From a bacterium (GTDB taxonomy: Bacteria; JAGOBX01): 64,000 bases of DNA. Every line of letters begins with the position of its first letter. Within the stretch, counting starts at the first letter, position 1. Below are positions 6,929 through 8,614 of this stretch, one piece after another. The DNA lies in contig JAKPEO010000007.1 in assembly GCA_029551925.1 (NCBI GenBank), positions 1 to 64,000 on the forward strand, read 5' to 3'. Below the pieces are notes generated by a model that saw only the letters and a program-made list of their open reading frames with translations, was not told the origin of the DNA and searched no databases. The position numbers and the translations under genes were made by a program.

Positions 6929-8614
6929 TTATTTATATTTTATCATTTTTTTGTGGTCGAACGCTTCGCGAATACCTTCGCCAATAAATACTGTTAACAA
7001 CATAGTTATAAAAAGAGTAATCGCTGGAAATAATATCAGCCACCAAGCGTCTTTATGGATCTGCGCTTGTCCTAATAACTCACCCCAACTCGGAGTCGGC
7101 GCAGGTAGACCATAGCCCAAATAATCAAGTGCTGATAATACAGATATTGCAGCCATCAAACTAAATGGCAGAAACGAAATTATTGGAGTTAGCGAATTCG
7201 GCAGTATATGCCGAAAAATTGTTTTATACCAAGGTAGCCCAATAGCGCGTGCCGCTTCGATATATTGAAATTGTTTTATTTTCAAAAATTCTGCGCGGAT
7301 ATAATATGATATGCCTATCCAATTAAAAATTGCATAGCAAATTAATAATAATAAAAATCCCTTGCCAAAAATATCTCCCAGTAAAATAATAACATATAAA
7401 AATGGTATGGCTGCCCAGATTTCTATAAGCCGCTGAAAAGTAATATCTATAATTCCGCCGGCATAGCCTTGTATCGCGCCTATGATGAAACCAAAAGACA
7501 TCGCTGAAAAAACCAATATTAATCCGAAAGTCAAAGATAATCTAAACGCATAAATCAATCGCGCGAGTATATCTCTACCAGCTTCATCTAATCCGAATAA
7601 ATGGCGCGCTGTCGGCTTAAAAGGAAACTTCATTTTTTCTTTGTATAATTCGATTTCGTATTCGTCTAAATTTCCGTTTTTTTCATTAATCGCATTAGTC
7701 AAGATTTTTTCTGTTTCAATAATGTTATTTTTAAATTTGTCTGTTATTTTCGTTATTAATGTTTCAGTGTCTTGTAATTTTGAATTTTTCAAAACATCAA
7801 TAAAATTAATTGGCATATTATTATTTTCAGAGTATCCGATAAATCTAAAAAAATCTTGCGATTGCGCAATAATATCAAGATTTTTTGATATTTTGATTTT
7901 AGGCGTTATAAAAAAATTACTTTCATCTTCGTTGATTCTAATATTTATACCGCGGCTGCTTATTCTGCCGCCGTCAAACGAAGTGAATCTAATATTAATA
8001 GTTTTTCCTGATTTTGTTTGCCCTAAAAATTTTAATGGCTGCGATTTTTCTTGATTATAACGGCTTTTTATGATTTGACTAATAGTATCGGCAGTAGAAG
8101 ATTCAAAAATGTATGTTATAGATTTTCCTGCTAATTCTTCGTTATTTTCTATCTCAAAAATTTCGCTTATATTGTATCTGCACGAATTTATTTTATTTTC
8201 GTTATTTACATAGATTATTCCTGTCAGCATATTTTTTTTTCTGACGCTGATAGTCATTTCATTTTTCAAACCGTGTTCTACTTTTTCAATTTCATTTGGA
8301 CTAAATGGTATTATCGGAAAAATCATATAATTTTTTTTGTTTTCCGTGAATATCGGATGTTCATTGAGTTTTTTATAATTCGCTTCTGTTAATTCGCCGT
8401 CCGCTAAAAAATCGCGTTCTGAATAAAATTTAAAAATCGGAAAATAAAATTTATTATTGAATTTTATTATTAGCGGGTTATCGTTTGCTATAAATTCTGC
8501 GAATAAACTAATAAAATATAAAGTTGCCAAAATTATAAGAGAATAATACGAGCGTTTGATATTTTTGAATTTTTGTATTCTTTTCTTGGCGATTGGCGAA
8601 AATCTAAATTTCAT
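6929..8614 (-). CDS. YejE/OppC-type ABC permease with embedded PAS-like domains
   Basis: 561 residues, about 200 longer than usual YejE. Residues 1-110 are YejE-like: basic N-terminus, membrane helix about 23-43, then AEFIANDNPLI and FYFPIF. Residues 330-561 are the binding-protein-dependent permease domain (GLDEAGRDILARL, and an EAA-type loop EAARAIGLPWYKTIFRHILP), with about five more helices. Between them, 122-228 reads as a PAS domain (GIIYVNNENKI, EELAGKSI, KSGKTINIRF) and 234-300 as a second, weaker one (IAQSQDFFRFIGYSE). In OppC-type topology this loop is outside the cytoplasmic membrane. YejBEF takes up peptides including murein peptides in some bacteria; the overlap with ldcA fits that. 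Its partner permease, ATPase and binding protein are not in the window. Confidence 0.85.
   Translation of the reverse strand: MKFRFSPIAKKRIQKFKNIKRSYYSLIILATLYFISLFAEFIANDNPLIIKFNNKFYFPIFKFYSERDFLADGELTEANYKKLNEHPIFTENKKNYMIFPIIPFSPNEIEKVEHGLKNEMTISVRKKNMLTGIIYVNNENKINSCRYNISEIFEIENNEELAGKSITYIFESSTADTISQIIKSRYNQEKSQPLKFLGQTKSGKTINIRFTSFDGGRISSRGINIRINEDESNFFITPKIKISKNLDIIAQSQDFFRFIGYSENNNMPINFIDVLKNSKLQDTETLITKITDKFKNNIIETEKILTNAINEKNGNLDEYEIELYKEKMKFPFKPTARHLFGLDEAGRDILARLIYAFRLSLTFGLILVFSAMSFGFIIGAIQGYAGGIIDITFQRLIEIWAAIPFLYVIILLGDIFGKGFLLLLICYAIFNWIGISYYIRAEFLKIKQFQYIEAARAIGLPWYKTIFRHILPNSLTPIISFLPFSLMAAISVLSALDYLGYGLPAPTPSWGELLGQAQIHKDAWWLILFPAITLFITMLLTVFIGEGIREAFDHKKMIKYK

Follow-up and report, generated by a model that had tools for sequence, protein, structure and literature searches.

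A PAS Domain in a Predicted Outward-Facing Loop of a YejE-Type Peptide Importer Permease

The product of the gene at 6929–8614 in the window, the 64,000-nucleotide bacterial stretch analysed here, is a YejE-type permease of a YejABEF-type peptide importer, and residues 113–231 of this protein are a PAS domain. Together with a second, PAS-like segment, the domain fills a TM1–TM2 insert that is, by structural superposition and charge pattern, predicted to be extracytoplasmic, on the side where a binding protein docks and near the entrance to the transporter. Most simply, the insert goes back to one insertion event in the ancestor of a single YejE clade, and its most likely role, to judge from its location, the retention of its fold, its fast drift and the precedents of MalF-P2 and DppB, would be that of an accessory domain for docking or capping. 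The features discussed below are as follows.

6929..8614, minus strand: yejE-type permease gene with the PAS insert; open reading frame of 561 amino acids
8291..8614, minus strand: residues 1–108, comprising the positive N-terminus, TM1 (about residues 20–42) and the YejE-type part of the TM1–TM2 loop
7922..8278, minus strand: residues 113–231, PAS1 domain, predicted to be extracytoplasmic (structure model and profile comparison)
7625..7921, minus strand: residues 232–330, PAS2-like domain (structure model only)
6932..7624, minus strand: residues 331–561, permease core, TM2–TM6 and the EAA coupling loop
8611..9528, minus strand: ldcA-like gene (LD-carboxypeptidase family)

The Permease and Its Insert

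Residues 331–555 form a BPD_transp_1 (PF00528) core of the OppC type (95.3 bits, E = 4.9e-27, passing the cut-off of 26.4). Among curated models the reading frame comes closest to PRK15021, which describes the microcin C permease YejE (E = 1.4e-76, with a score below that model's own cut-off of 439), and the YejE N-terminus aligns to residues 1–108. In a tree of the core sequences alone, built by a quick method with SH-aLRT supports, the protein and E. coli YejE belong to a YejE clade (support 100) from which other OppC-type permeases are separate. It thus shares both its core and its YejE-type N-terminal loop with YejE of the known YejABEF systems (E. coli b2179; Agrobacterium YejBEF-YepA), and partner genes for YejA, YejB and YejF are present among relatives.

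What distinguishes the window permease from E. coli YejE is a stretch of about 215 extra residues between TM1 and TM2 (residues 109–330). The motif G-D--G-D, found at residue 126 in E. coli YejE, lies at residue 340 here, and an insert-free relative (L003) passes from the position of residue 108 to that of residue 331 with about 10 residues between them, where the window protein has approximately 222. The initial annotation had described a segment of this size separating a YejE-like N-terminus from the permease core, and these alignments confirm it; they also agree with the DppC superposition described below in placing it in the TM1–TM2 loop. Neither E. coli YejE nor L003 has the segment. A second genus of the same family (G001, JAGOBX010000206.1) carries a homologous insert in the same place (34% identity over 215 amino acids, E = 1e-29), the two proteins being 34–36% identical in the insert and 74% in the core. 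Because homologous inserts occur in this contig and in 17 further named genomes, we regard the insert as genuine; an assembly or frameshift artefact is ruled out by its recurrence in independent genomes.

Residues 113–231 Are a PAS Domain

Modelled with AlphaFold from an alignment of 19 sequences, the insert has a mean pLDDT of 85 and a pTM of 0.61. The best Foldseek matches of the model in the PDB are PAS proteins (best E = 1.6e-5), and nearly all of its structural matches there are PAS; VIA-align superposes it on AHR with a Z of 11.3 over 98 residues (rmsd 2.6), with RpfR, ARNT and FixL close behind. Profile comparison leads to the same family. A PAS1 profile matched PAS domains of sensor proteins at 95%, a set that had been fished with the insert profiles themselves, and the comparison was redone with hhalign on domains collected by family (30 PAS_9 and 30 dCache_1 domains, with column-shuffled controls). 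Against PAS_9, PAS1 then scored 93.2% (E = 3e-7), and shuffled controls reached at most 2.2%; with the window pair alone the figure was 92.7%, and with only the remaining relatives it was 87.4%. Fold and profile thus bear out the PAS pattern first noticed at residues 122–228.

Individual PAS1 sequences, in contrast to PAS_9 domains, score under the Pfam PAS cut-offs, which would explain why annotation overlooks the domain. A PDB sequence search with the insert profile returned no significant match. Run against 386 genomes, a model built from two inserts recovered the two family members and otherwise gave weak matches only; these included sensor proteins, matched in their PAS regions (L037, L039, L040), as well as unrelated proteins (L033, L038). 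With the 19-sequence model, more insert-bearing YejE came up, along with PAS-containing proteins. Weak insert matches to AAA_21, tail_tube and other families, all under cut-off and non-recurrent, were set aside as noise.

Since Cache is the PAS-like domain normally met outside the cytoplasm (PMC4822843, PMC10468136), the insert might be expected to be an extracytoplasmic sensor domain of the Cache/PDC type, with which it shares a PAS-like fold outside the cytoplasm. We consider this highly improbable: against the dCache_1 profile, the Cache family used in our comparison, PAS1 scores 0.1% as opposed to 93.2% for PAS_9, and its model is strand-led and lacks the long N-terminal helix that serves as a criterion for Cache (PMC4822843). 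The rarity of PAS domains outside the cytoplasm, noted at the outset, is supported: according to a 2023 survey, every extracytoplasmic PAS domain that had been studied by experiment has since been reclassified as Cache (PMC10468136), a view that has been disputed (PMC11078701). The window permease offers, its position being given by topology, an extracytoplasmic domain with a match to PAS but none to dCache_1, in a transporter rather than a receptor, and the rule that PAS proper is intracellular becomes testable. A literature search turned up nothing relevant on PAS domains in the loops of ABC permeases, and no paper in the collection searched combines YejE with a PAS domain.

The second PAS domain that had been proposed at residues 234–300 fares less evenly. 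In the AlphaFold model residues 232–330 have three helices and four strands, against five strands in a PAS fold; the order of the elements is PAS-like, and the segment resembles a second PAS that has been truncated; in profile-profile comparison with PAS the same segment reaches only 0.9–4.5%, so that the likeness is one of modelled structure and not of sequence.

Predicted Position on the Importer

Seven lysine or arginine residues and no aspartate or glutamate precede TM1, and the EAA loop and C-terminus are likewise positive. The full-length AlphaFold model (mean pLDDT 78.7, pTM 0.58) superposes on DppC with a Z of 22.6 over 268 residues that span the insert (model residues 10–554). Superposition and charge pattern agree on a DppC-like fold of six transmembrane helices with the N-terminus inside, and the TM1–TM2 region of DppC is periplasmic (PMC12136057); on these grounds the insert is predicted to face outward, as had been proposed for the loop that holds it.

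Distribution and Origin of the Insert

The initial annotation had described the PAS domains in the window permease. The module is unusual, but it is no single odd case: a whole clade of YejE proteins, spread over several phyla, has it. A search for other permeases with the same insert yielded, besides G001, 17 further full-length examples in a scan of genome contigs (Desulfobacterota, Verrucomicrobiota, Kiritimatiellota, Lentisphaerota and Planctomycetota, including Desulfatibacillum and other Desulfobacterales, Verrucomicrobia, Kiritimatiellae and Lentisphaeria) and, in a genome search, three more genomes from another phylum. The nearest relative, L041, was deposited as Candidatus Dependentiae with a genome listed at 3.8 Mb; this seems large for Candidatus Dependentiae, and the name may be wrong.

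In the core tree all insert-bearing YejE form one clade (support 98), and insert-free forms, E. coli YejE among them, lie outside it. By parsimony this tree requires three changes, a number consistent with a single gain and two losses. Both losses fall within gut Kiritimatiellota, whose loops are short or filled with low-complexity repeats. The repeats in the reduced loops of L068, L075, L081 and L082 (IQHSAFSIQHS, HSSLVTRHSS, TTKPPNHQTT) are in frame, and they recur elsewhere in the same frames.

No other part of the protein evolves as fast as the insert. Between the window permease and named relatives outside its family, each insert domain is 3–18% identical (about 10%), compared with 57–64% for the core. 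R185 is the sole invariant insert residue (19 of 19 aligned sequences), and the conserved positions are mostly hydrophobic or structural.

A Possible Accessory Role at the Transporter Entrance

We suspect that a PAS domain and a PAS-like domain were inserted into the outward TM1–TM2 loop of an ancestral YejE, and that they would now stand over the translocation entrance as an accessory domain for docking or capping, where they could touch YejA or other parts of the transporter and help to hand over or retain substrate. Such a role is suggested because the location of the insert, the retention of its fold and its fast drift all fit it. Its work might resemble that of MalF-P2 and of the scoop motif in DppB, which are likewise extracytoplasmic elements of type I importer permeases on the binding-protein side, the likeness being one of functional analogy only. 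MalF-P2 lies between other transmembrane helices than the insert does and has another fold. The scoop differs in that it consists of two helices and belongs to the other permease subunit (PMC12136057); a paper on the MalF-P2 loop appears among the references of PMC7756565. The insert is dispensable for docking in general, since E. coli-type Yej systems and gut Kiritimatiellota work without it and still have YejA. Taken as a whole, the account of an accessory docking or capping domain of one-clade origin, on an importer of wall peptide, seems to us about evenly balanced between right and wrong.

Two other readings of the same evidence deserve consideration. Strong divergence, together with secondary reduction or loss in gut Kiritimatiellota, is what might be seen if the insert served only for structure or packing, stabilising YejE or its assembly with YejB for instance, or had no role that matters. 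Against this reading, R185 is invariant, and the fold persists across several phyla although identity falls to about 10%, suggesting that the fold is under selection; we think the reading unlikely.

The initial annotation had proposed instead that the transporter senses a ligand directly. PAS domains commonly bind ligands, the fold of PAS1 is confidently modelled with ligand-binding PAS proteins (RpfR, FixL) among its top structural matches, and its position at the entrance would suit a true extracytoplasmic sensor, one that gates the importer allosterically on binding the transported peptide or some small ligand. Several observations disfavour the idea: (i) the insert domains have drifted far faster than the core; (ii) with R185 alone invariant, column conservation across the 19 sequences reveals no conserved polar pocket, a result with which a lineage-specific pocket is still compatible; (iii) the window permease has no signalling output domain, and in this, as in lying outside the membrane within a transporter, PAS1 departs from the cytoplasmic PAS_9 domains of sensor kinases whose fold and sequence profile it shares; and (iv) the insert has been reduced or lost in gut Kiritimatiellota that mostly keep YejA and YejB. 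Sensing by PAS1 is therefore rather improbable in our judgement, and its boldest form, in which a true PAS rather than a Cache domain outside the cytoplasm is an importer-built sensor for ligand-gated muropeptide uptake, somewhat more so. Were the sensor reading true, it would break the rule that confines PAS proper to sensing inside the cell; under the accessory docking or capping role that we favour, the insert would be a natural case of a PAS fold reused as a structural or docking part, and would point to an accessory domain in peptide importers, a YejBEF relative of which recycles cell wall in Agrobacterium.

Substrate

The start of yejE overlaps the ldcA-like gene by 4 nucleotides (8611–8614), as had been noted; LdcA matches the muramoyltetrapeptide carboxypeptidase model with an E-value of 4e-41, below the curated cut-off. 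AmpG has no match in the window genome, which is 86% complete, and in Agrobacterium, which is without AmpG, YejBEF-YepA imports muropeptides (PMC9790009). Overlap, missing AmpG match and Agrobacterium precedent together suggest import of wall peptides, and in the window organism the importer probably takes up cell-wall peptides or muropeptides, with LdcA trimming them after import on this view. The link with ldcA was seen in the window only, none of the other loci examined containing ldcA. As regards the whole transporter, the earlier proposal of a wall-peptide connection is plausible; the evidence does not extend to the PAS module as the binder.

Yej Partner Genes

Where contigs allow, insert-bearing yejE genes sit in yejA-yejB-yejE-yejF operons (for example, L042, L048, L052 and L058), and Desulfatibacillum has yejA-yejB-yejE-yejF1-yejF2 together. 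The best matches in the window genome to YejA, YejB, YejE and two YejF-type ATPases lie on five contigs among unrelated neighbours (window 6929–8614, L099, L090, L091 and L092); its YejA starts with an apparent signal peptide.

Nearly all gut Kiritimatiellota with a reduced or lost insert retain YejB beside yejE and encode YejA at another place in the genome. Joint loss of the insert and YejA was considered and not seen, YejA being present in nearly all insert-free lineages; the exceptions are the L060 genome, with no YejA match, and the L080 genome, with a weak match only. In lineages with a reduced insert, YejA diverges faster in comparison with the core, a weak trend in favour of a docking role that is confounded by relatedness. 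In some gut Kiritimatiellota (L068, L075, L076, L081 and L082) the YejE frame runs stop-free into two YejF-type ATPase domains, and a permease-ATPase-ATPase fusion is possible.
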